Positions 1 through 64,000 of a DNA stretch of 64,000 nt are shown piece by piece. Positions within the stretch are counted from its first letter, which is position 1; every line of letters begins with the position of its first letter. Source of the stretch: Chrysophaeum taylorii (Eukaryota; Sar; Pelagophyceae; Pelagomonadales; Pelagomonadaceae); assembly GCA_029834535.1 (NCBI GenBank), contig JAQMWT010000096.1, positions 1 to 64,000 on the forward strand. The letters run 5' to 3'. The notes beneath the pieces were generated by a model that was not told the DNA's origin, ran no database searches, and saw only the letters and a list, made by a program, of their open reading frames with translations. A program made the translations under genes and the position numbers.

Positions 1-2002
1 GCGTGTGAATCCGATTTACGGGCCCCGTGCAGCCAATGACGCCCAAAGGAATGGACCCGCCGCTGCTACGCTCGATGCTATGAGTCTACCTCCGGACATT
101 CAGGTGGATGACACTTCGTCTCCACGATCGACGGACGATGCGTCGCAGAGGATTATCTCGAGTGATAAGCGCGCACCTGTTTACACTCCCATCGAACGTC
201 ACGTGCCCTGTATTGCTGACGGGTAGATATTGTTGGGACGACGTACGTCGGGGACGACGCCTTCTTCTTTTTGCAGGCTCCCCGACGAACCGATTACAGA
301 CGTTTGCAGACGTTTGTGCAGATGTTTTATTCCTTTGACGATGGCAGACGTTTCTGTGTGCCGACATTTTTAGTGACGGGGCGATTGCCGATATTCTGAG
401 GGATGGAGTGGATGATAGGCCGAGGAAACGGCCGAGAAAATGAATACGAAAGCGGAAGAGACGAAGAATCTTATAACGCATGAACTGCCTTTGGAGCTCA
501 GTGAAAGCCCTGGCGTATTGCTCACGAACGAAGAGTTCAAAACATTTTCAGCCTGCGTATGATGATGGCTGTGGATAAAGAAAGATCCCGAACATACCAT
601 GAGGATGAGTATAGCTGCCGCCGGAATCGAATTTGGATGGGACGATCAGCATGCTGATACGAGGAAGATGAGCACGACGGTATGGATGAGTCACTGTTTC
701 TGAAAGAAACCGCCAGAGCGGGAAGTGCGATTCCGACCCCGAGGCATGGATTTATTCGCCAACGGCACGATTTACGTTTTTGGTCGGCAGTTTTGGCAAG
801 AAGACGACGCATGTGTCGATGTTTCGATAGACGAGACGATTGAGACAGTTCGATAGGCTTGGGAGCACCAGTCGCCTACAGGGACGATCCAGCAGGGTAA
901 TGGACCGCCGAACTGACGCCAGAGAGAGACAAAGATACAAGTGCCCCAGTCGAAGTTCGCGCCGGCACAGACGACGCCGATCGCGCGACGACGAATACGA
1001 CGGAGGCCGACACCAATATAATTTGGGTTGCGCTACGCTCGCGTTTACGACCCTTGCGGTCAACAGTTACCATTGGAGTGATGTGTACCCGAACACGGAC
1101 ACCCGCACCGACGACGCAGCCGACGCTCTGCTGCGGCCGCATTCGAAGATCTTGTCGCCCGCCGATGGACGAGCCACCCAACGACGTGCTGACCGATCGT
1201 CGGTCTTTGGCTTTACAGATTTATGAGGAGATGTTCGAGCGATGAACTCGAAGATTCGCGATGACCTGAAGCTCCACGGTACGGAGCGCGATTCAGATTC
1301 GGAAGATGAAGAAGCTACACCTTGCGAACCAGTGTCCGCGATAACGTTACTGACGAGTCGTCCACGGACGACCCACCGTTTGTTTTTGAGGAAGCCCTTC
1401 CTATCGGCTTATCTTTGGACCCTCCAGGGACGACCTTTGGCGACCAAACTGGCTGTGAGCCAGACAAGGATTTCTGCAGTGATAGCTCGTGTGATCGTTC
1501 GACGTATGAGCACGAGACCATCGCGAGTGACGCAGACGACGATCTTACGATAAAGTTGACGTCGGGGACGACGCCATCTTTTCCTGCGGACCCCGAAACG
1601 GTTTCGGCCACGACGGATCGAGCCACGGACACGCCGCCGGAAGAAAAGGATAGACTTAAGAAGAGATTAGCAGCGTTCTGGATCGGGACGAAGACGAGCC
1701 AACGTGGAACCTGCAGGATTGGTGGTGGACAGAACTCGGAACTTCTGCTAAAGAAGCCACCAGAACAACCGCTCAGCCACGGACTCGAAGCCGCAGCCGA
1801 CACGGAACCGATCGCCGATGATGGCGATGATCAACCAACGACGAACGAATCTACGGATGCGTTCTGAAAACGAAATGAATGAGTTATGGGAGGTCCTTTG
1901 CTTCCAAGAATAGCGAAGATCGGATCCCCACCAGCACTGATTCCTTGAGATTGTCTTGAGGAAGAGCGAAAGCCGCCAGATAAAGAGGCTGCCGCGAGCG
2001 TT
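1..2002 (+). other. Degenerate acidic gag-like 5' part of the element
   Basis: There is no long clean gene here, only short overlapping open stretches. The longest, 1322-1867, is a very acidic, Ser/Thr/Asp/Glu-rich, probably disordered protein. An adjoining frame (1242-1553) starts with an equally acidic segment and appears to be the same protein upstream of a frameshift. No zinc knuckle is visible. From its position before the protease it is probably the gag-like part of the retroelement, but no gag family is recognisable. Confidence 0.45.
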
Positions 2003-2560
2003 ATGTCGATGACGCCAACAACAGATGATACGAAAGCTCAAGCCGCGGTATCGATGCCCAACCCCGGAGATGAGCGAGTCAGAGCCCGATGTGCTCACAC
2101 TTCGTTGACGCCGCGAGATGGCAAGACGATCGAAGATGATTTGATTACCCTCCGTTGTTTAGATACGGGTACTCTTACGTTTATGGCCTGTCACATCTAC
2201 AGGAATCGGGACGGACCGAAATTCTCGACGACCATCGGTGTCGATGGAATGGCAGATGTTTCTTATATTTGCCGAGAAATGGTCAGAAAGTTGGCCAAAG
2301 ATCAGTTGATTTTCGATGAAGGCGAACTTCCGATTAAGCGCAAGCTGCACGGATCAGGGTTGAATACGACGACAATCTTTCGTTGGATCGCGATTCGGGT
2401 CGCCCTCGCCGACAACATCGCCGCCCCCCATTGTCGCTATTGTGGCCGATGCGAACTATCTGTTCCTGTTGGGAGGGCGCGATATACGAGTTTTAGGAGC
2501 CGTCGTGGACTACCCCCACGATCGAATTTGTTTATATCGAACCCAAGTCGTCTACGGGCG
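2003..2560 (+). pseudogene. Retroelement aspartic protease, split by a frameshift
   Basis: Around 2230-2260 the sequence encodes Val-Asp-Gly-Met-Ala-Asp-Val-Ser-Tyr-Ile, which lines up with the Asp-Ser/Thr-Gly-Ala-x-x-Ser-x-Ile active site of retroviral-type proteases but with Gly-Met where Ser/Thr-Gly is expected. The second half of the domain (Gly-Arg-Asp-Ile-Arg-Val-Leu-Gly, then a Val-Asp strand) is in another frame, at the start of the methyltransferase ORF near 2470-2530. The shift coincides with a C6 run at 2424-2429. The altered active site could mean the protease is dead or divergent. Confidence 0.55.
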
Positions 2561-4562
2561 CAAGAAGATTAAGTTCAAGGATGAACGAATCGATGCACCC
2601 ATCGTGACCTTTCGATCTATTTACGATCGAGGCCCGATAACAGTGCCGATTTACAATCATCAACACGATGCATTTCGGAAGAGTCTCGACCTAGTCAAGA
2701 CTCGAGTTTACGCTCGCTTGAGCACGATTAAAGATCTCCGAAGCCCGCCGCCGGAACGGACGGTAGCCTTGGCTACGCGGGGACATGCTACGACCAAATT
2801 CTCCCCAGCTCCGGGAGAAGACGCGCGAGGAGCAGTGGCTTACGCTGCGCGCGCGCTTCAAATCGAGCCCGGTCGAACTTACAATCTACGGGTTATTTTG
2901 TCGAAGCCTATGGAAATGGGACAGGTTTTCATCGCTACGTTTGCTGAGAACGAGCAGTTTGGAGTTGTCGAAGGAATGTGTTCTTCTTGCGAAGAGCACG
3001 ACCGATCCGCTGCTCGGGTTGCGGTTACTGCCGCGGAAGAAGTGCCGACGGTCGTCACTCAAGGCGAAGTCCTTGCAATTGGCGATATCGTTAGGTACAA
3101 AGATGAGTTGAACGTCTCTACGATCAACGAACTTACGAAAGAATGTGAAGAAGGATACGACAAGGGGAACCTTTCTTTCACCGTTTCCGTCGCTAGTCAT
3201 TTGACGCATTGCGACGCGTCTCCCCCGCCGATGTTGCTGAGCACGGCGCAGAAGGACGCTGCGACCGCTATGGCGGACAAGTCCTCCCTCAAACGACCCG
3301 AAGGCGACGACGATTTTGCTCGAAGCTCGGAAGAAGATGAAAAGAAGTGCCGCGAGATCACCGAAGCGGAGATCCGTCGCCGATACGAAAAGGTTCAATG
3401 GCTTCCAATCACTTATCGCAAGGTGGTGATGCTGTTCAGTGGAGCCGGAGGCAGTACTTTAGGTCTCCAACGAGCCAACGAATTGTGTGGGACGTCGTTT
3501 CGAGTCGTGCTAGCACTCGATGCGTCGGACACCGCCAACCAGATCCACCATAAGAATTTTCCGAACATTCCTGTGGTGCAGCACACACTGTGTGTTTGCT
3601 ATGTTACAACCTTACGGTTGATTGAATCTTATTTACCCAACGCGGAATGGTCGTCGTCGATGTGTATCGCGTCGCCACCCTGCGTACACTCCGCTCTGTG
3701 CAACTTGACTTCCAGTGATGTTGAGAAGGGAGTCACCGCTACCCACTGGACGATGAAATTATGCAAGATGGCTGGTTTCTTCATCTGGTTGATAGAGCAG
3801 GAGGCCTCGATTATTTCTTACGTTGCACGTTTGCACCCTTACGTGTACGTCGTCAATTTTTATGACATAACGCCCAGTTTGATGAGCTGTCGCGTGCGAT
3901 TGTTGGTTTCCAGCCACCCGCTCCATTTGCGGGCAGTTCCAAAGACTCGCAAGAATATGCAGCAAGGGTTCGCCGCCGCACTTGGCTACGCCGACGAACG
4001 ACATTTACTTCAGATGAACAATTTAGGATCATCGCGAGCCGCGACAGACGCAGCTTACACCGTTACGCGATTCCCGCTTCGTGTAGGACCGCACCGTTCC
4101 GATTACAGATCTTTGAATCTGAAAATGACTTCGGAGTTGCTGACAATGCCCCTTGATTTTGATTGGGCCGGCTTCTCCAGGACGACCTCGTTGAAACACT
4201 TGGCGTCCGTCGTGCCACCAGACACGATGACCTTATTAGTACTCGATCTGCACAACTCTGTGACCAAGGATTTTCACTTGAGCGGCGAAGCTTTGCCGTC
4301 GGCGTTGAGTCCTGCAGACCGACCGTTTGATTATTATTTGCAAATTGATGAAACCACCCTTCGTCACGTACAAGCTCCGCTGTTAAACACGCGCACATGT
4401 GTCGTAAGATGGGTATCGACTGATGATCTCCAAGATCGCACCAAATGGAAACCTCCAGAGGTACCGTTGATTCCGCCTGCAACAGATGAGCCGGGGACGT
4501 CTCATGCTTCTTCTGCTGCCCCCCCCTCGACAACCAAATTTGGACGTTCCGCCAGATCCTGA
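2442..4562 (+). CDS. C5-cytosine DNA methyltransferase domain of the retroelement polyprotein
   Basis: This 706-codon frame begins with the end of the protease and then carries a Dcm/DNMT-type methyltransferase, which would transfer methyl from SAM to carbon 5 of cytosine. Visible motifs: I, Phe-Ser-Gly-Ala-Gly-Gly-Ser-Thr-Leu-Gly-Leu (about 3433-3465), the SAM-binding loop; II, Leu-Ala-Leu-Asp-Ala-Ser followed by Asn-Phe-Pro; IV, Ala-Ser-Pro-Pro-Cys with the catalytic Cys codon at 3681-3683; a VI-like Ile-Glu-Gln in place of Glu-Asn-Val; a VIII-like Ser-Cys-Arg-Val-Arg-Leu-Leu. Near the end, His-Leu-Ala-Ser-Val-Val-Pro-Pro could be motif X with the usual Gly-Asn lost. The ORF ends just after a C8 run (4519-4526), beyond which RT continues in the +1 frame. 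Target specificity and activity cannot be read from the sequence. Confidence 0.85.
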   Translation: MADANYLFLLGGRDIRVLGAVVDYPHDRICLYRTQVVYGRKKIKFKDERIDAPIVTFRSIYDRGPITVPIYNHQHDAFRKSLDLVKTRVYARLSTIKDLRSPPPERTVALATRGHATTKFSPAPGEDARGAVAYAARALQIEPGRTYNLRVILSKPMEMGQVFIATFAENEQFGVVEGMCSSCEEHDRSAARVAVTAAEEVPTVVTQGEVLAIGDIVRYKDELNVSTINELTKECEEGYDKGNLSFTVSVASHLTHCDASPPPMLLSTAQKDAATAMADKSSLKRPEGDDDFARSSEEDEKKCREITEAEIRRRYEKVQWLPITYRKVVMLFSGAGGSTLGLQRANELCGTSFRVVLALDASDTANQIHHKNFPNIPVVQHTLCVCYVTTLRLIESYLPNAEWSSSMCIASPPCVHSALCNLTSSDVEKGVTATHWTMKLCKMAGFFIWLIEQEASIISYVARLHPYVYVVNFYDITPSLMSCRVRLLVSSHPLHLRAVPKTRKNMQQGFAAALGYADERHLLQMNNLGSSRAATDAAYTVTRFPLRVGPHRSDYRSLNLKMTSELLTMPLDFDWAGFSRTTSLKHLASVVPPDTMTLLVLDLHNSVTKDFHLSGEALPSALSPADRPFDYYLQIDETTLRHVQAPLLNTRTCVVRWVSTDDLQDRTKWKPPEVPLIPPATDEPGTSHASSAAPPSTTKFGRSARS

Positions 4563-5952
4563 GCGAGATCGGGAACCGAAGATTAAGAGCGAGCCGAAGG
4601 TTCGTGTCGAGAGGATCAACAAAAGCCACCCGGAAGTGAGACTAAAATATGATAAAACGTTTGATGTGCCATGGAAAGATGCGCGCGATGCTGAGGGTGC
4701 ACCGCTGCCGCAAACTCCTGAGCATGTCAAGGATAATAAAGCCATGAAAGTCCAAGTTCCTACGAACAAAGAAGTTGATAAGGTTGTTCAGGAGCTGGGA
4801 ATTCCTGACAATCCGCACTTAGATGACGAGGCGAAACTGATGCTCCGTCACTGTGTGCAATATTCTTGGGCCTTTTTCGACCCGATCATGAGACCTGTGG
4901 ACTCACCTCCTGTGTCTCAACGATTCAAAGACGCGAATCCGCGACCGATTAAGATGACGCCCTACCGATTGACGCCTGCGAAGCTCGATTGTCTCCGCAA
5001 GCAGATCAGCGAGTGGTGCCGGGATGGAGTCATTCGCCCGGCCAACTCACCTTGGGGCTTTCCTGTGTTGATGCTTCCGAAGAAAAGAGCTGAGATTGGA
5101 ACGTCCAACGCGTTCCGTGCTGCAGTTGACTTACGTCAGCTCAACGATCAACTGGTCAATGACAGTTGGCCGAACATTCGACAAGATGATGCTTTAGCTT
5201 TTCTCGCTATGCGACGATGGCGGACATGCATTGATATTAGATGGGGATACCACAACCTTCGTCTGGATCCGGCAGCGCAAGATGCTGTCACGACGGTTAG
5301 CCCACTTGGCGCTCATAGTTTCTTGCGATTACCTCTAGGTGTGAAGACGGCCGGAGCTCTGTTCTGCAAGCAAATGGCGAGCGACCTTTCGAAATGGATG
5401 TATCGAGACTTGGTTGCGTTTGTTGACGATATTATGATGGGGTCCGACGATCTTCATAGACATTTACAAGTTTTGATCGAAGTGATGTGTCATTTGGCAC
5501 AGAGAGGGTACAGCGGTCGAACCGCGAAGTTCCACCTCAAGGATGATATAGAATTTCTGGGACACATTTCGACCCCAGAAGGCTTGAAGCCGAATTCGAA
5601 GACGCTGGAAGCACTGCAGAAGATGCCGATTCCAGGTACTTTACCGAATACTTCCTCGAAGACCCAGATACGCTCTTTTATCGGCATGAGTAATTATTGC
5701 CGGCGATATGTGAAGGGCTATTCGAAGATCGTGGAACCGCTAAGACGATTATGCCTCGAAGGTGTAAAGTTCGAGTGGACGCCCGAGTGTCAGAAAGCTT
5801 GGGATACGATTATTGAAGCTTTGGTTGATTCCCGTGGAGTCTACCACCCCGATTACGATCTGCCTTTCAGATCTGATCAGATGCTTCCAAGGATGGACTT
5901 GGAGCGTGTCTCTTCAGGATTGTCGAAGTCAAGGACGATGCCGGAAGAGTGA
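4486..5952 (+). pseudogene. Ty3/gypsy reverse transcriptase
   Basis: The real protein probably joins this frame at the C8 run at 4519-4526. A hydrophilic linker leads into a typical gypsy RT: a Pro-Tyr-Arg-Leu-Thr-Pro segment, a Val-Ile-Arg-Pro-Ala-Asn-Ser-Pro-Trp-Gly motif, Ala-Val-Asp-Leu-Arg-Gln-Leu-Asn, the Leu-Pro-Leu-Gly-Val-Lys-Thr-Ala block and the polymerase active site Phe-Val-Asp-Asp (5419-5430). The connection domain follows (Arg-Ser-Phe-Ile-Gly-Met-Ser-Asn-Tyr). Near 5870-5880 a tandem CAGAT repeat shifts the frame, so the first RNase H segment is read out of frame and the ORF ends at a false stop. Confidence 0.9.
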
Positions 5953-6722
5953 CTCGAGAAGAACGAGTGATTGAATATTGGAGCAGAGCTGTGCCGAAGG
6001 AGATGCGCAATTATGAGCCCCGTCGGTTAGAGCTACTGGCAGTAATACTTTCTCTAGAGCACTTTCGAGCCTACATAGAAGGGCACCGGACTGTTTTGGA
6101 GACCGATCACCGAAATTTGACGTTTTTACGTAAGGCGGCGCACTCGTCTGGACAGCTTGCTCGTTGGGCGATGTGCCTCGCCAATCTTGACCCTGAACTT
6201 GGTTACAAGCCGGGAAAGTCACCGGGAATGAGTATCCCTGACTGTCTCTCCCGCAATCCGATAGACCAAGTCATCGAGACTGACGAGTTTGGAGAACCTT
6301 TGAACCACGCTTATCTGGTGTTCCAAGAGCTTCCCCGACCTGTTGATGACCGAGGAGTTCCCGTCTCCGGCTGCCACTTCATAATGTCGTTTGTTACGAC
6401 CGAACTGCCGGAAGACGAAGACGAAGACCCTGAAAAGGATCCGATAAAATTGGCTACGTCTCACGCTACAAGACAACGTCGGAAGAACCGTGCGCGCGAT
6501 GAGCCGGAGATCTTCAAGGGCGCAGCCGCTTACAAAGATTATATCGATAAAATACCCGATAATATGACGCTCGCTGAGATCGCACGTGAGCAAGAATCTG
6601 ATGCTACTTGCGAGGATATTCGCTACCGAATGGTCAGACGCCGCGACGTTCCCGAGCGTACGAACGATTCGAAGTTGTTAAAGACGTTCTTTACCGCATT
6701 TCTGCTGATTTGCACCCGATGA
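5874..6722 (+). pseudogene. Ty3/gypsy RNase H domain
   Basis: Directly after the CAGAT-associated frameshift this frame reads Ser-Asp-Ala-Ser-Lys-Asp-Gly-Leu-Gly-Ala (first catalytic Asp), then Tyr-Trp-Ser-Arg-Ala, Tyr-Glu-Pro-Arg-Arg-Leu-Glu-Leu-Leu-Ala (catalytic Glu) and Glu-Thr-Asp-His-Arg-Asn-Leu (Asp codon 6105-6107). This is the gypsy RNase H that removes RNA from the RNA/DNA hybrid. A conserved Asp-Cys-Leu-Ser-Arg closes the domain. Beyond about 6400 comes a charged linker to the integrase. Homology leaves this frame near 6660 and continues in the frame of 6608-6817, a second frameshift. Confidence 0.88.
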
Positions 6723-8065
6723 TTGTTGCACCTGCTACGTTGCGCAAGCGCATTATTCGACTCTACCATGACGCTCCGGTTAACGGTGGTCATATGGGAC
6801 GTCACAGTACCGTCTAGGCTATCCAAGAACGATTTTGGTGGCCCCACATGTCGAACGAAGTTGGAGTCTTCATTGCTGAATGTTTAGTTTGCCAGAAAGC
6901 TCGTACGCCTGAGCCGAAACGAGCTGGACTCTTGCAGCAGCCCGTCTACGATGGTGATGGTGCTGTTCTTTGCATGGATTTATTTGGACCTTTGCCCAGC
7001 GCTGGTCCCGAGACGTATCTTCTAGTATTTTTTGATCCGTTCTCGCATTTCTTGATTCTGGATGTTTTGAACGATAAGACTGCCGAGTCTGTCCTCGAGT
7101 CTTTTGTCATTAACATCCTCCTCAAGGGCTACTTGCCCCAGATGATTCGTACCGACAACGGTAAAGAGTTCGTGAACAAGTTGATGCGCGAGTTTTGCCA
7201 TCTCTTTAACACGCGATACCAAACTACGATTCCTTATCATGCCCAGTCGAACCCGGCTGAGCGTGTTAACCGATTTATCAAGGCCTTCCTCCGTGCTTGC
7301 CTTCAGGGCCGGAACATTACGGATTGGCCCGACTTTGCCCATTATATTGCGTTTTATTACAACCGCAAGTTTATTCCAGGCACGCAGATTTCTCCCTTTA
7401 TGCTGTGCCTGAACCGTCAGCCGATGTTGCCGACTGACTACACGCTTATGGACTTTGATACGCGATTATTGCCGAAGACTCGCTCTGATGCAGTCGCCGA
7501 AACTCGTGAACGATTGAAGTATTATACGAAGATCGTCCGCGAGGCTCGTGATAAAGCTTTGAAGAAACAACGATTGGCCTACAATGCCGATCATGTTGAT
7601 GTTGAATACAAGGAAGGATCGCACGTTTTGCTCTACATTCCTTTCCTCCAGAACAAACTTCGACCGGAATGGCGCGGACCGTTTATTATCAAGGAACGCC
7701 TTTCCCCGGTCACCTATAGGATTGAGTCTCTCGACTCTCCGCCCGAAGAGCGACGTGTTCATGTTAGTCAGATCACGCCTGTGATGGTACCTCCGATCGT
7801 TGATCAAACCATCCGCAAACCCGAAGAAACCTACCGTGATGATTATCAGCACGGTAAGTTTGTTGTTTTCCGGATTCCTGACCGGAAGCGCTCTGATTGG
7901 CGCAAGAAGATTTATGTTGCTGAAGTTTGCGAGCCTTACGATTACCAAAATGATCGTGTTGCTCTACATTTCTACTCCGATTTTTGTCCGAACGATGATG
8001 TCGCTTATTTCAAGCCGACCTCACCTTTCGCACCGCACGCTCAAGCCCGAGTTCAAGGACGTTGA
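6608..8065 (+). pseudogene. Ty3/gypsy integrase with GPF module, interrupted by a TAG
   Basis: The frame starts with a typical gypsy lead-in (Val-Leu-Tyr-Arg). The HHCC zinc-binding region has His-Met-Gly-Arg-His before, and Cys-Leu-Val-Cys after, an in-frame TAG at 6815-6817. The catalytic core is complete: Asp in Cys-Met-Asp-Leu-Phe-Gly (codon 6977-6979), Asp in Arg-Thr-Asp-Asn-Gly (7154-7156) and Glu in Asn-Pro-Ala-Glu-Arg (7259-7261). A GPY/F-type module (Trp-Arg-Gly-Pro-Phe) follows near 7670, then a further basic/aromatic segment that is not a recognisable chromodomain. The single stop would need readthrough, or it marks a dead copy. Confidence 0.9.
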
Positions 8066-8267
8066 AGGTCGAAGTTTCACCGACAAGTCCAGAATTTCCT
8101 CCAACACAACTCCTTGTGTCACGGATTTCGCTCCGCACGAGATTGATGTGTTGATCCCCAAGTTTACTTTACGCAGTGGCCGAGTTCCTGAACCGGTCAT
8201 CACCCGCGTTTACCAGAAGATTCGTTCACGAGATGCTCGTAAGGCGAAGCCGCGCTCCTCGCGCTAG
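8043..8267 (+). pseudogene. C-terminal tail of the retroelement polyprotein
   Basis: The integrase frame ends at 8065, but protein-like sequence continues in the next frame from about 8043 to the stop at 8265-8267. It contains Leu-Arg-Ser-Gly-Arg-Val-Pro-Glu-Pro, resembling the Ser-Gly-Arg-x-x-x-Pro tail of many gypsy polyproteins, and ends in a Lys/Arg-rich stretch. I read it as the true C-terminus displaced by a one-step frameshift near 8045. No catalytic function is assigned. Confidence 0.5.
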
Positions 8268-8384
8268 CATCTCGCTGGGGCAGCTCGAATTCTTACCAGA
8301 GGAGTCCTGTGCCGGCAACTCCCGCCACGTAAGGCTTACCCCTCTTCTAGGCCCCCCCTTATCAGGGGCACCGTACTCCGTTCT

Positions 8385-8414
8385 GATGATGTCAGTTTTC
8401 TCTATGACATCATC
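8385..8414. repeat. 10-bp perfect inverted repeat with bZIP-like half sites
   Basis: GATGATGTCA (8385-8394) and TGACATCATC (8405-8414) are exact reverse complements separated by 10 nt. The arms contain TGATGTCA and TGACATCA, which resemble CRE/bZIP binding sites. It lies shortly after the retroelement coding end, inside its likely 3' LTR. It could be a promoter element of the LTR or an RNA hairpin. Confidence 0.6.
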
Positions 8415-9018
8415 TTCCCTGATTTCTGTGATTCAACTGTTTTTAATCATAATTTGACATAAAGCAACAGCCGATCCTCAAGTAGTGAGGACCAGGCACG
8501 GAAGTTGTTTGTGGTTGCGTGGCGGGAGAACGGCCATCCTCGTCCAGTGACTCCATCAAGGGCACGGACGCGAGCGGCGAGCCAGGATTCGAAGGCACGC
8601 CAGGTAGGCCTAAATTCTCCTTACGCCACACTGTTGTTCTGCGAGCTGTTGTCGCGCTAAAACGCCAAGCACCTTGGGCCTGAAGTAAAGTGATTACGGG
8701 GGCTGCATTGAGTCCTTGCGCCGAAGTCGATGTCAGAGCGCATTTGATTAACTTACTAACTAGCTTCTAACTTCTGTCATCTCCGTTCTTTGCCTGCCTG
8801 CCCCTTTGCTCTTTTCTTGCTTATTGCTTCATCGTTATCCGAAGTCCCCTTAGTCTTTCTTTGAAATCCTCAATTTTGACTAAGTTCAAAATTGACTCGT
8901 CGAGCCTGCCTGCCTGCCCGCCTGATTAAATTGTGAAGCGTCGCTCTTCGAGTCGTTCTGCGAGCGTGGCTTAACCCCATATTAGTCCCAGTTCTTTTCT
9001 TTTCCCTTGACATCTTCC

Positions 9019-11701: not shown

Positions 11702-12805
11702 TCATAGCACGGTGCCGTTTGCATACACATCGACGTCGATGGCGCGGATAGCGCGCTGGAAGTCGGAATAGTAGTCGTTGGCTCCTAAAGTTGTGTTCCT
11801 TTCGCGCAGTTGGTCGAACCAGTCCGCGCAGCAAATAAAGGTTTGGCCTTCCTCGTGGAGTCTAGAAAATTTCGCCTCGCCCGTCCGCTTGCCGCCGTTG
11901 ACGCAGTGGACGACGGTGGCCTCGGGATGCGCGACCTCGCAGTGGTCGCGCGAGTAGTCGTACGTGGGAAGGAGGGCGACGCTTAAGTTGAACTTTTTTC
12001 TGAGGCCGACGTGAGCTCTTCCCGACGTTTCGAAACCATCCCGGAGCCACTCTATCTGGGAATCGTTGAGGAGAGAGTTGATGGCGAACTGGTCGTCAAA
12101 TTCGCCGAGCTTCTTGGCGTAGCGGACAGTATCGGAGATCTTGGTCTTGTGAACGAGTTGTGCGAGAAAGACTTCGGTCGCGATCGAACGTTTGAAAGCG
12201 ATAAATCCCATGCACAATGCTCCGGTGCGCCATTCGTGGGCAAACTCGCTGGGGAAATGTCCCTGGCTCGCGAGGACGTCAAACGTGCCGAGGCGGTCGA
12301 TGAGATCGGGTCGCGGGTCCCTCTGCCAAATCGCGTCGCTGTCGGTGAGGAGGACGTCGAGCTTGGCGTCGTTGACGAGGACCTCGAGGACGCGCACGCG
12401 AAACGCCCAAAGTCCGCCGAAGTTCTCCTGCCACCCCGTCATGCCGTCGTAGCACGGCGGTGCTCCCATTGCCTTGAGCGTTGCGGGGAGCTCGTCGTCG
12501 AGGCAGACGAGGTTGAGCTTTGAGGGCATCGAGTTATCGAGCCTCGACATGGCCACCATCGCGTTGATCACCACCTCCAAATATCCCGTGTCGGAAAACG
12601 TCACCGTGAAGAGGTCCTCGTCTTGCGCCGCCGCTCGCTCCTGGGCCCAGTCTACGAGGCTCGGACGTCGTTCCTCGAACCACGTGGCGTGAGTCATGCG
12701 AACCGATCCGCCGACGTTCAACGCTGCCGTCGATGTTCGCGAAAACGCCGCCAAACCCACCAACCACATCGCCATTTCGAAACCAAAGTATCGGTTTTGC
12801 GGCAA
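11702..12805 (-). CDS. Nucleotide-diphospho-sugar transferase family protein (GT77-like)
   Basis: A 367-codon intronless gene. Residues about 11-30 form a hydrophobic segment ending in small residues, a signal peptide or anchor, so the protein should enter the ER/Golgi. The body matches the nucleotid_trans fold (GT-A): a Leu-Asn-Leu-Val-Cys-Leu-Asp-Asp strand, then Asp-Val-Leu-Leu-Thr-Asp-Ser-Asp-Ala-Ile-Trp-Gln-Arg-Asp-Pro, corresponding to the metal- and sugar-nucleotide-binding Asp-x-Asp block of this family, then Gly-Phe-Ile-Ala-Phe-Lys and a Phe-Asp-Asp-Gln segment. Likely a secretory-pathway glycosyltransferase; donor and acceptor are unknown. The start could also be the internal Met-Ala-Met at codon 11. 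Confidence 0.75.
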   Translation of the reverse strand: MPQNRYFGFEMAMWLVGLAAFSRTSTAALNVGGSVRMTHATWFEERRPSLVDWAQERAAAQDEDLFTVTFSDTGYLEVVINAMVAMSRLDNSMPSKLNLVCLDDELPATLKAMGAPPCYDGMTGWQENFGGLWAFRVRVLEVLVNDAKLDVLLTDSDAIWQRDPRPDLIDRLGTFDVLASQGHFPSEFAHEWRTGALCMGFIAFKRSIATEVFLAQLVHKTKISDTVRYAKKLGEFDDQFAINSLLNDSQIEWLRDGFETSGRAHVGLRKKFNLSVALLPTYDYSRDHCEVAHPEATVVHCVNGGKRTGEAKFSRLHEEGQTFICCADWFDQLRERNTTLGANDYYSDFQRAIRAIDVDVYANGTVL

Positions 12806-13836
12806 AGTTAAGCGACGGGGCGCTGCGAAGAAGCAACGCGAAGCGAACGAAGCGAACTAATTTAATACAGCGGACGTCGAAAACAAAAAAAAACTGCTGA
12901 CTACTAAAACCTAAACAAAATTACGGGAATGAAGGAAGGCGAGGAGGAAGTTTCCTGAACTTCCGGCGACCGTTAATTATGAAGCGGCGAAGCAGGGATC
13001 GTTCCTGTTCACTGCGATCAACGAACGAGAAGTCGCGATAGCCGGCGATACTAAGGCATGCTTGTGTTTGGCGTCGGCGGATCGACGGCGCGCGTATCGT
13101 GTAAACACGGCGAGATTCAACAACGAAGCATATTGTCTCCCGGCTGGCTGTCGAATCAGAGAGAGACGGCGTACGTGACTTGTGGTATCATCATCACCTG
13201 CAAAGGACTCGTGCGTTGCCAAGCAGAAACAAACGTGACTCGTCGCGACAAAATTAGTCCTGCGGCAATGTTTGCGTCTGCAGCCCGTCCGCGACTCTAG
13301 GTGCGCGGCAGTGCGGACACCAGACAGACGACGTGGATATGCCCGTCATTCTCGTGAGCAGCCGCCGCCTTTCACTGTCTTGCTACATTCACCGCGCGAC
13401 ACTGTCGCTGTAAGATTGTACGCGCACGTAGCAGCCGTCAACGAGCGCACCACTGCTCAAGACGCGCCGGTTGGTGCTCGCGATGGAGGCACCTGCCGCC
13501 AAAAAAATGTGAAAAGGGACGACGCAGATGCGCGTGTGACACTACACAACGCTGAGGAGCTTCTCACCCGGACCTTTTCTTCTGATCATGCCAAGGTTCG
13601 AGCCAAAAGTGCTTTTTGGAAATCAAAATTGATAACGCCAATAACCCTGCTCTCGAACATCCGGCCTCGCGGGGAATTTTCCCGACTACCGTCTCGTTCT
13701 GTAATGGCGTGTTTCGTGCGCACCCGAAATGAATGCACGCTGGTCGACGCACACCTCGACGGACGGACGCACGCAGAGAGCTCTAACGATTTATACATAG
13801 ACAACAAGACCGGAGACTTTCTTTGAGGTGAGATAT
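12806..13836. other. Intergenic; no supported gene
   Basis: A plus-strand open stretch at 13272-13826 has arginine-rich, random-looking composition and no domain. The segment next to the glycosyltransferase start has GAAGCGAACG-type repeats. Nothing else is recognised. Confidence 0.5.
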
Positions 13837-60751: not shown

Positions 60752-63135
60752 ATGCCGACGAACCAAGAACTACAAAAGGAGATAAAAGACCAAGAAGCTC
60801 GCATAGAGGCAAAGCATACTAGGGAGATGCAAGCTCAACAACAAATGATACAAGCACAAGCTGCTCAAGCGCTACAAGCACTCCAAGCACAACTCAATGC
60901 CATGCAGACACCACCTGCCGTCGCTGCTGCGGCTCCGCCTCCCACTCCGGCTCAACAAGATCCAAAGACTACAGTTAACACCTTTAGTGACCCCCCAAGT
61001 GCCGTTCTCAAGTCCATGGACTCGGCGCAATTCACACCCCAAATGCTTTCGTTTCGCGTCATGCAATTGTTCGTCGAACATCTGATGCCTGAAACAGGTA
61101 TAACTCAGTACTTCCTACAGGGCTTCTACACGTGGGAATCCGTCCTGCGCGGATCTAACGATCTCGCTGACGCAAGATCCAAAGACTACAGTTAACACCT
61201 TTAGTGACCCCCCAAGTGCCGTTCTCAAGTCCATGGACTCGGCGCAATTCACACCCCAAATGCTTTCGTTTCGCGTCATGCAATTGTTCGTCGAACATCT
61301 GATGTCTGAAACAGGTATAACTCAGTACTTCCTACAGGGCTTCTACACGTGGGAATCCGTCCTGCGCGGATCTAACGATCTCGCTGACGCTCTCCTAAGC
61401 CACTGTATCGACGAATACGACAAGGACCCCGACAACCACTCTACCGCCGGGAACACGCCAGATTTCCAAGACCGTTACGTCTACTACAAGGGTGTCTACC
61501 GCAAGTTTCGGCAAGCGCCTCCTGGACAACGTCTACGAGCCGAAACTCCACGAACTCAAAAACCAAGACAAGGACCCAACCGATATAACAAAAGGCAAGT
61601 TATATCCAATTACTCAACCTCATCTCCAAGGAAAAGAAGCCGACTTCATCGTATATCTCCGCGAGACTGTACACCCCCTATTTCGCCGTTTCCTACATGC
61701 CGGTAGCGACTCCGTCAAGCACCCAGCATACGACGAAATCGATGATGCACTCGGATCCTCCTGCCCGATAGGACTCGAATTTGTGCTTCAAGTTCGCCTC
61801 GCACTCGATAAGCACACGGGCCAGAACCACATCCACCATGCGCATTATGTTTACAATGCCTTTCTGGACACGCCGTTCAACCCTGAAATCCATGAGCCAG
61901 CTCACTACATCGACTACATGCGTCATGTCCAGCAACAACTGCGCCAGATCACCACGGACGCTTCTCTCCAACTTACCGACGACAAGATCCTCGAAGAAAT
62001 TCACCAAATTCTCCGCTTCAAGTACCCCCCAAGCTTGCTTGACTCCCGCGCCCCAACACACATCAAGGGCTTTGCACGTCTTGCTAACTGTCTGCGCAAT
62101 CACAACGACTCGCTGTTACTCGACGAAGACGAGGAAGCCATCCACCACCTTCCTAAGCTCATCGCTCACATCACCGTCATTTCAACGTTTGAGCGCAACT
62201 TTTGGGCTCACCTCAAGCCTCACCCCACTCTCAACTTCAGGCCTTTGCGCTTCGTTAAGGACTTTGGTCGTCTGCCAACAAAGTACAAAGACAACCCCAG
62301 CTTTCGCTCCCGCCGTCATGGTCTCCACCTCACCGAAGACGATGATGACACCTCTCCCTCTGAAGACGACACCCCACCGGACCCCGTTGAAGACACCGAC
62401 CCCGTCGCTGTTTTTCTCACGGAGGCCAATCTTGATCAAGAGGAAGACAATGACCTTATTCACCAACTACACGCATACCGCAAGAAGCAAATTTCGCGGC
62501 ACGTCAAAAGGCCCCCTCCAGGCAAAAAGCCTCCTAATCCTCGCTCCCTGTCTTACTACGACGTCAATGACAGTCCTAAGCCCAAGGCCACCCCTGTCAC
62601 CCCACCGAAGAACAAGCACCGTCCCCGCGCTCCTCCTGTCACCCCTGACAAACGCGAGCACCCACATCTTCGCAAGGTCACCTTCCCCACACAACCTCAT
62701 CCACCCAAACCATCCACTCCCGACCAACGCTTCAAGGTCCCCCTTCGTGAAGTCCGTCGCAAGCTCCAAACCATACGGAATCTTAGCCAAGCCGGTCGCC
62801 AACATACGTCCAGCTCCGAGCGTATGAACAAGCTAATCAACCTCATCACCACCATTTCCGATGAGATACTTCTTTCCGAAGCCGAAAACGACGCCGCCGA
62901 ATTCCTCCAGATGTTAACGTCCGATCCCCAAGACGATCAACCTGATGAGGGCGAAGCCGAAACCGATGAACAAGACGACAACGGACATCTCGGTTTCTAC
63001 GACGACAACGGTCAGATAAACCTCTACGACGATACCGTTCCCGAAACCACTGATGAAGATGACTCCGCCGAAGACTACGCCAAACGTCACAGTGACTACA
63101 TGCGTGCTCTCCACCAGAGTCGGCTTTTTCGCTGA
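60752..63135 (+). pseudogene. Gag-like ORF of the second retroelement, frame-broken
   Basis: From ATG 60752 the protein begins with a Gln/Ala-rich coiled coil (Met-Pro-Thr-Asn-Gln-Glu-Leu). A 217-bp tandem duplication (60956-61390) shifts the frame, and another 1-nt shift occurs near 61510. From 61492 the frame is open to 63135, with a capsid-like helical region (Tyr-Phe-Leu-Gln-Gly-Phe-Tyr, then Asp-Asn-Val-Tyr-Glu-Pro-Lys), followed by acidic and Lys/Pro-rich tracts. No zinc knuckle is seen. The TGA (63133-63135) overlaps the ATG of pol. The breaks make this copy unlikely to encode one intact Gag. Confidence 0.7.
60956..61390 (+). repeat. 217-bp tandem duplication inside gag
   Basis: 60956-61172 and 61173-61389 differ at only one base that I can find (GATGCCTG versus GATGTCTG). 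217 is not a multiple of three, so the duplication breaks the gag frame. Confidence 0.97.
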
Positions 63136-64000
63136 TGGTTGCCGACGACGCCTGTGCCGCCAACCACACCTTACTTCATCAGGCACCAAACCTCCAGATG
63201 ACGAATTTCCCGACCTCATCAACTATTTCCACAAGAGTCGCAGATTTTCTTTGTGCAGCTTACACCCCAGAAAAGACCTCAAAGAAGACTAGCTCACTGC
63301 ACGGATGCAATGGCCCCGGCACCGAAACCTCATTGATTGACGGTGGCGCATCTTTTTGCTTTACGCGCACAATTCAAAATTTTGTTCCCGAGACCATACG
63401 CCGAATTCCCGAACACACCATTCATATGGGACGAGGCACCCTCACCAGCCACTTCATCGGTGTTAAACCGTTGTATCTGCAGGCTGCAGGTCTCTCTTCA
63501 AAGGATACAAAAGACAAAACCGGTTACGCTTTATATCTCGTATTTATGGTCGTCCCGCAATTCAGGCAAGGTCTTCAAGTTATCGCAACATCTCAGCTCA
63601 AAGCTCTGCATGTACAAGCAACAGACCCGCCACTGCCCCACGAGCCCTACCTTTATGAGCTTCTAAAGTCCTCAACCTCAGACCCCCACAATTATGCAAC
63701 ACTTCTAGGAAAGACCGCCGTCGTACTTGCCACTCGCAAGCCTAACGGCCTGTTGTCCCTGCCATCCCACCCAAAGCAAACATTCGCCACTGTGGTCAGC
63801 TTTCACACAAGAAAACGAATGTCACTCAAGGATGAGATTGCACACATCACACAGCATGTCGCAAAGACACGCTCACAATCGCACACGCTTGACTTCGCGA
63901 AGTTACAAAATCATTCACTGTATCTCAACGAACTGCTCAACCTCCAATCTCCTGTCGTCCACTACGCCTTCAATGGCTCAGCAGACCTCTCTGCGCAGTC
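63135..64000 (+). CDS. Pol ORF of the second retroelement with aspartic protease motif (partial)
   Basis: Open in frame from ATG 63135 through the window end. Residues around 63330-63365 read Ser-Leu-Ile-Asp-Gly-Gly-Ala-Ser-Phe-Cys-Phe, equivalent to the Asp-Ser/Thr-Gly-Ala-x-x-x-Phe protease active site of retroelements, with Asp-Gly-Gly-Ala (63339-63350) as the catalytic box. After the protease the sequence is protein-like with no further motif before 64000. It starts at TGATG, so expression may occur by termination-reinitiation or by -1 frameshifting, since the frame is also open upstream of 63135. Confidence 0.7.
   Translation, partial: MVADDACAANHTLLHQAPNLQMTNFPTSSTISTRVADFLCAAYTPEKTSKKTSSLHGCNGPGTETSLIDGGASFCFTRTIQNFVPETIRRIPEHTIHMGRGTLTSHFIGVKPLYLQAAGLSSKDTKDKTGYALYLVFMVVPQFRQGLQVIATSQLKALHVQATDPPLPHEPYLYELLKSSTSDPHNYATLLGKTAVVLATRKPNGLLSLPSHPKQTFATVVSFHTRKRMSLKDEIAHITQHVAKTRSQSHTLDFAKLQNHSLYLNELLNLQSPVVHYAFNGSADLSAQ

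Follow-up and report, generated by a model that had tools for sequence, protein, structure and literature searches.

Cytosine DNA methyltransferases (MTases) carried by retrotransposons are already known: in Symbiodinium, enzymes of this kind (DNMTs) reside in long interspersed nuclear elements (LINEs) and in DIRS elements, in Klebsormidium they reside in a Gypsy element, and they are under purifying selection (de Mendoza et al. 2018, PMC5890265). The MTase of the DIRS-type element methylates CG in yeast, comparable yeast assays gave no clear answer for the Gypsy and LINE enzymes, methylation of the complementary DNA (cDNA) has been proposed for these algal relatives, and in Symbiodinium a loss of CpG is seen in the LINE type only (PMC5890265). 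Stramenopiles are listed, in the available part of a review, among the hosts of elements with adenine or cytosine methylases, the two kinds being pooled (PMC6338049). Here we analyze 64,000 nucleotides of Chrysophaeum taylorii DNA (the window, which begins at base 1 of contig JAQMWT010000096.1, referred to as C96), at the start of which lies a gypsy-type long terminal repeat (LTR) retrotransposon whose polyprotein includes a C5-cytosine MTase. What is likely new is an MTase with an altered motif VI spread over three lineages of this element, together with a probable second capture by a copia-type element. Because retrotransposons are usually silenced by DNA methylation, the retention of a cytosine MTase by the elements themselves poses an open question.

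An MTase in the polyprotein of a Ty3/gypsy element

The gypsy-type element occupies window positions 1-8630 on the + strand as a single element, with its 5' end lost at the contig start. Four stop-free frames (2364-4562, 4471-5952, 5877-6722 and 6818-8065) match, in this order, the Pfam models for C5 DNA methylase, reverse transcriptase (RT; RVT_1, E = 4.8e-11), RNase H (RT_RNaseH, E = 2.3e-22) and integrase (rve, E = 1.2e-12), and the RT, RNase H, integrase order of Ty3/gypsy is present both in these frames and in the copy on contig C5. The MTase domain, running from motif I to motif X, spans about 3384..4330 and is followed on the same strand by RT at 5107..5568 (with FVDDIMMG at 5419-5442), RNase H (PF17917) at 5880..6182 and the zinc-binding (PF17921) and core (rve) domains of the integrase at 6821..7240. 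The integrase triad, D-D-35-E, is formed by the D in CMDLFG (6971-6988), the D in RTDNGKEF (7148-7171) and the E in NPAERVNR (7250-7273). A reading made from the sequence only had placed C5-MTase motifs directly upstream of RT, RNase H and a DDE integrase in an element at 2442-8065; Pfam and the motif coordinates agree on this arrangement, and the element stands with wider limits, from the contig start to the end of its 3' LTR. The window copy is broken by frameshifts and one stop and is therefore not itself a working element. A search of the genome (70.8 Mb in 697 contigs) for intact copies with the same order, as that reading had proposed, found two with uninterrupted frames of 3,063 and 3,067 residues, in which the MTase belongs to the same polyprotein as the RT.

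The broken frames of the window copy would fit a chance juxtaposition or a nested insertion, which the sequence-only reading had tied to copies without the MTase or to separate insertions of the two parts. To address this, about 1.5 kb upstream was read at each of 20 RT places, taken from the 87 in the genome, that had no match to the window MTase frame. MTase sequence lies upstream of RT in all 20 and spans the whole domain in 16; at L046, L048 and L062 only its C-terminal part falls within the fetched stretch, at L049 the N-terminal part is inverted, and L056 and L060 lack much of the protease-linker region yet retain the MTase. Three of the 20 (L063, L064 and L065) form a second subfamily, 67-73% identical. 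A third lineage, reached through RVT_1 matches outside the known copies, keeps the order in both copies that were read (L083 and L084), its RT being 61-64%, its MTase 39-41% and its protease-like stretch 35-37% identical to those of the first. With the order kept in all 20 copies and in the third lineage, and with uninterrupted frames of about 3,060 residues, chance juxtaposition is rejected, at a probability that we regard as negligible, and the anatomy by itself is close to certain.

The window MTase frame has 64 matches in the genome (61 scored of 1,500 candidates), mostly 88-95% identical, and the RT frame has 87 (87 scored of 1,632 candidates). An MTase query from the second subfamily finds 106 places in both subfamilies (106 scored of 1,131 candidates, every one a match), and one from the third lineage finds 127 (118 scored of 931). 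These counts are lower bounds, and they are also inflated by matches that are pieces of one copy and by contigs that look duplicated. The pairs C25 and C521, and C10 and C297, carry identical matches at near-identical places, suggesting duplicated contigs or haplotypes.

Identity of the gypsy MTase

The motifs of a C5-MTase (numbered I to X by convention) are present in order: motif I, RKVVMLFSGAGGSTLG, at 3417-3464, motif IV, ASPPC, at 3669-3683, motif VIII, SCRVRLLVSS, at 3885-3914, motif IX at 4113-4148 and motif X at 4200-4226, all on the + strand; the motif VI position (3789-3812) reads LIEQEASI. The Pfam model PF00145 gives 22.9 bits with the window frame (cut-off 22) on motifs I-III only, and across the first two subfamilies it likewise covers motifs I-III only, at 19.8-27.9 bits (L063, 24.6; L065, 27.9; P0001, only 19.8 against the curated cut-off of 22). 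Scores in the third lineage are 37.8 (L083) and 35.6 (L084) bits, and a third-lineage copy alone reaches E = 1.9e-9 with its best stretch at motifs IX-X.

A comparison profile was made from 14 C5-MTases, consisting of the host DNMT2, the host DNMT5 and 12 phage enzymes found by similarity to host DNMT2 (3), to host DNMT5 (6) or to the copia-type family B described below (3); no member was picked by likeness to the gypsy MTase, and one of the 13 phage loci fetched as references (L072, an unannotated record) was dropped. Against this set, a profile of 48 gypsy copies aligns over 258 columns from motif I to motif X with a probability of 95.5, E = 1.4e-8 and a score of 63.7, whereas 200 column shuffles reach at most 26.7 (0/200 attain the score), the reversed profile gives 10.3 and four other segments of the gypsy polyprotein give 12.7-19.4. 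Without its first 70 columns the profile scores 35.4, compared with a shuffle maximum of 23.0, and with the third lineage added the match has a probability of 97.7 and E = 1.4e-12 over 265 columns. Of 50 loci, 47-48 could be read, and every one of these retains the catalytic Cys, the Glu of motif VI and the two Arg of motif VIII, residues that are conserved across copies and lineages alike. Protein searches with the window frame and with residues 815-1205 of P0001 found no relative within their limits (fewer than 8,000 word-sharing candidates scored each), viral contigs held no match for the gypsy or the copia MTase, and phage records held none for the gypsy MTase. Structure prediction of the window MTase domain alone gave a predicted local distance difference test score (pLDDT) of 30.6 and was not used.

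Selection on the MTase

Nonsynonymous and synonymous divergence (dN and dS) were compared, as mean dN over mean dS, in 435 pairs of 30 first-subfamily copies. Windows of less than 70% identity (50% for L063-L065) were masked, which favors conserved stretches, so that the resulting values lean low (MTase, 0.25; protease-like stretch, 0.27; linker, 0.29; RT, 0.19 over 405 pairs; 5' part, 0.53). An unmasked run (RT, 0.50; MTase, 0.25) was discarded because its RT figure came from alignment tails beyond frameshifts. A comparison across subfamilies, pairing L063 and L065 with three copies, gives an MTase dN of 0.13-0.15 and dS of 1.3-1.5, a ratio of 0.09-0.11, and the RT of the L063 and L065 contigs has dN of 0.03-0.06 and dS of 1.4-1.7; the L064 MTase gives a ratio of 0.10. 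A stop lies inside the MTase in eight of the 30 first-subfamily copies. From the between-subfamily MTase ratio and the lower dN of RT, the gypsy MTase is therefore kept by purifying selection, less tightly than RT. Together with the comparison of lineages, this shows that an LTR lineage with Ty3/gypsy order had the C5-MTase in its polyprotein before the three lineages split, and that selection keeps it there.

Other parts of the element and complete copies

Upstream of the MTase, a protease-like stretch with approximate bounds of 2213..2560 (+) is read from motifs in two successive frames of the window copy, VDGMAD at 2240-2257 and LLGGRDIRVLG at 2466-2498, the former present in 27 of 30 gypsy copies. 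Retropepsins usually carry Asp-Thr/Ser-Gly; the stretch reads Asp-Gly-Met in the gypsy type, third lineage included (L083 residues 76-80). No Pfam protease model matched it, and the 'protease' is for this reason a motif reading only. The MTase position claimed earlier, between protease (here a protease-like stretch) and RT, is kept across copies. The linker from there to the MTase (2561..3383, +), which lies in the uninterrupted frame of the copy on contig C5, has no Pfam match. The 5' gag-like part of the polyprotein (1..2212, +), in broken frames and cut by the contig start, was placed by DNA identity to other copies: window 3-985 is 88% identical to an upstream piece of the copy on contig C5, and window 347-2865 is 91.8% identical to the copy on C524. 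The gag-like frame of the former gave no Pfam match.

The 3' LTR of the window copy (8308..8630, +) is 86-91% identical to both LTRs, or the 5' LTRs, of the copies on contigs C5, C47 and C524; its 5' counterpart lies beyond the contig start. LTRs in those three copies are roughly 310-340 bp, opening with TGTGGCGG (or a close variant of it) and closing with CCACA, with within-copy pairs 98.2, 95.3 and 95.2% identical. Exact 5-bp target duplications (GTTTT, ACCAT) occur at two of the three, the copy on contig C5 having none, and by LTR coordinates the C5 and C47 copies measure ~10.3 and ~10.5 kb. The 20-mer directly after the 5' LTR occurs 128 times in the genome, compared with 0 for the reversed control, and the listed sites on these two contigs fall inside element copies; a primer-binding-site pattern search returned the elements themselves and found no tRNA gene. 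Near the gypsy copy on contig C5, a 404-residue frame (L043:1-1212, +) with a zinc-knuckle-like stretch and DTGAN resembles the gag-protease of another element. Eight RVT_1 matches, including the four best of the genome, share a single contig (C696) and are perhaps intron-encoded RTs. Elsewhere in the window, a 384-residue frame at 11705-12856 (-) matches the domain model of nucleotide-diphospho-sugar transferases, PF03407, at E = 3.3e-7.

A second MTase in a Ty1/copia element

At the other end of the window, 63096..64000 (+) holds the first part of a 1,952-residue frame that runs on to C96:68951 (L045) and belongs to a Ty1/copia-type element, family B. Its C5-MTase starts at ~63963 and extends past the window (match C96:63963-65015). 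Pfam matches PF00145 (E = 1.1e-7, 32.1 bits) and RVT_2 (E = 1.6e-38, at 1686-1933 of the frame); an integrase before an RVT_2-type RT is the Ty1/copia order, the rve match at 1016-1110 being weak (17.2 bits, below the cut-off of 32.6). A protease-like stretch read by eye in the L045 frame, SLIDGGASF, has Asp-Gly-Gly where Asp-Thr/Ser-Gly is usual.

The family B MTase has 125 matches in the genome, from 116 scored candidates. A PF00145 search of the genome found 57 places (123 scored of 474 candidates), one of them DNMT2 and one DNMT5; of the remaining 55, 48 overlap family B MTase matches (counted against 71 of the 125), two more (C64 and C490:57866) belong to family B and five are unassigned. 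Motif VI reads Glu-Asn-Val in six of seven family B copies, and each of the 21 pairs compared has a lower dN than dS. The family B MTase matches the C5-MTase set with a probability of 97.3, which is partly owing to the choice of that set. A protein search with the copia-MTase alignment A3 found no relative within its limits (fewer than 8,000 word-sharing candidates scored), and 30 phage records gave weak matches, the best at E = 1e-6.

Profile comparison of the gypsy and copia MTases found no similarity (probability 0.4 or less), and because none is detectable two independent captures are likely. A single capture, passed between gypsy and copia elements and then diverged beyond recognition, would account for the shared genome and for the shared position of the two MTases, each downstream of a protease-like stretch and some 200-280 residues from it. 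Such a history is hard to square with the absence of similarity between two enzymes that each match the C5-MTase set, an objection weakened by the thinness of the profiles and by the three of 14 set members that were found via the copia MTase; we consider it improbable.

Host enzymes

The host DNMTs were surveyed by the PF00145 genome search only. DNMT2 lies at L001 (C634:7324-11301; E = 3.9e-39 to 1g55_A), and as a query it had no match in the genome-contig collection. DNMT5 lies at L002 (C621:15462-18998), a 2,086-residue open frame with E = 3e-143 to 7r76_A, a chain deposited as DNA repair protein Rad8, which we take to be the Cryptococcus Dnmt5 structure. A light-harvesting protein adjoining the DNMT2 gene has its best matches among violaxanthin, fucoxanthin, peridinin and chlorophyll a/c antenna chains, in keeping with an ochrophyte or a relative of that group, and lends weak support to the red-plastid host proposed from the sequence. 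As possible sources of the gypsy MTase, the two host enzymes are no closer to it than other C5-MTases are: scored as single enzymes against the three-lineage profile, DNMT2 reaches 33.6 and DNMT5 13.6, compared with 39.0-41.7 for four phage enzymes.

Possible roles of the MTase

The mechanism that we prefer, tentatively and with somewhat less than even confidence in it as a whole, is that the MTase methylates the element's own cDNA. Each MTase would go back to a capture of its own, a single event whose source was distant from host DNMT2 and DNMT5; it would be produced as part of Gag-Pol, packed into the particle and would methylate the new cDNA before or at integration. The marked copy would escape a host response to unmethylated foreign DNA, and the host DNMT5, which in fungi is a maintenance enzyme, might copy the cDNA-derived mark onward. 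In favor of this mechanism count the constant order across copies and lineages, the uninterrupted frames, the selection on both MTases, the retained catalytic residues, the match of both enzymes to C5-MTases, and, in related algal elements, CG methylation in yeast and the cDNA methylation proposed for them (PMC5890265).

Several observations weigh against this proposal, beginning with the motifs. Instead of Glu-Asn-Val, motif VI of the gypsy MTase is Glu-Gln-Glu in most copies and in all three lineages (LIEQEAS in 44 of 50 loci, three being unread, and EQE in both third-lineage copies), and in the family B MTase motif IV reads Leu-Pro-Cys and motif I is degenerate. We know of no other MTase with Glu-Gln-Glu in motif VI, and made no search for one. 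Methyl transfer to cytosine is a prediction for both MTases, and because of these substitutions their activity on DNA is not certain. They would also fit a domain that has lost methylation and is kept as a nucleic-acid-binding, cofactor-binding or structural part of Pol, with motif VI altered in the gypsy type and motifs I and IV in the copia type; the preservation of the catalytic residues described above speaks against such a loss, which we think rather unlikely. In addition, the profile of the first two subfamilies finds DNMT2 chains as its best solved structures at E = 0.10, which is not significant, the profile with the third lineage finds nothing at 0.1, and the case for two separate captures depends on a lack of similarity between thin profiles.

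The remaining objection is the lack of a CpG footprint. Long-lasting germ-line CpG methylation is expected to cause CpG loss. There is no CpG depletion in the copies (observed/expected 1.32, compared with 1.15-1.43 in 5-kb pieces of the remaining window), and C/T differences between copies show no clear excess at CpG over other sites (6.3% versus 5.0%, and 5.4% versus 5.8% on the other strand). When C/T differences among the family-A copies L009-L038 are sorted by trinucleotide context, ACT (12.7% on one strand, 7.8% on the other) and CCT (8.3% and 6.6%) stand out with higher values; neither CpG nor the trinucleotides give a clear footprint. The CpG figures are an argument against strong and persistent CpG methylation of the copies, and they lend no support to the self-marking or manipulation of silencing suggested from the sequence; efficient repair, a different target sequence or an RNA target are alternative accounts.

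With RNA as the target, the MTase would act in the manner of DNMT2, methylating the tRNA primer or the RNA of the element, with a role in packaging, translation or priming. The missing footprint is consistent with this, as is the finding that DNMT2 chains, without reaching significance, are the best solved-structure matches of the first two subfamilies, whereas the higher scores of the four phage MTases than of host DNMT2 argue against it; we judge it unlikely, if slightly less so than the other alternatives to the preferred mechanism. The same missing footprint counts against an action in trans, in which protein from old copies would methylate other insertions or host genes, thereby restraining the element itself or blunting the host's defense by manipulating its silencing. 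Several hundred copies in 70.8 Mb would suit such an action, which has been suggested for relatives (PMC5890265), and we hold it to be about as improbable as a non-catalytic domain. A more far-reaching reading involves the host DNMT5. DNMT5 maintains methylation in Cryptococcus, a fungus without de novo activity (PMC10538959, available part). In this alga the retrotransposons could supply the de novo part of DNA methylation, their two independently captured MTases seeding 5-methylcytosine for host DNMT5 to copy; if true, host and parasite would jointly make the methylome, an idea that we regard as a long shot.

Comparison with described elements

Two likely independent captures, in both main LTR superfamilies and kept by selection, stand here in a 70.8 Mb genome in which DNMT2 and DNMT5 were found, and several hundred copies of different age with two unrelated enzymes make the question of the MTase's role testable. 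Searches of openly accessible papers, judged by title and abstract, list no report of gypsy and copia C5-MTase elements in one such genome, and two papers on microalgal DNMTs (PMC9998398, PMC3145265) name no such element in their available parts. The Sola transposons of the brown alga Ectocarpus likewise bear a DNA MTase, but are DNA transposons with an N4/N6-type MTase, a different class of enzyme (PMC12477816, available part). DNMT3 members are reported from LTR Copia and DIRS elements, so that MTases in elements named Copia are a shared feature; that statement concerns streptophytes and dinoflagellates and cites the 2018 paper (PMC12344493, available part).

Symbiodinium offers a closer parallel, as SymbioDIRS-Dnmt3 and SymbioLINE-Dnmt are also high-copy retrotransposon C5-MTases, with more than one class of MTase-bearing element per genome and a host that has DNMT5; its elements are DIRS and LINE, whereas those described here are LTR gypsy and copia (PMC5890265). 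Closest in architecture is KnitGypsy-Dnmt3 of Klebsormidium nitens, a Dnmt3-family MTase in an element with a DIRS-like repeat arrangement, in contrast to the plain LTRs found here (PMC5890265). The gypsy MTase described here differs further in its motif VI Glu-Gln-Glu and its host group, and no DNMT3 chain appears among its solved-structure matches, where no family was significant and direct comparison with a DNMT3 sequence was not made. Both elements nevertheless share an intronless C5-MTase within the Pol of a gypsy-type LTR element, present in many copies and maintained by purifying selection (PMC5890265).

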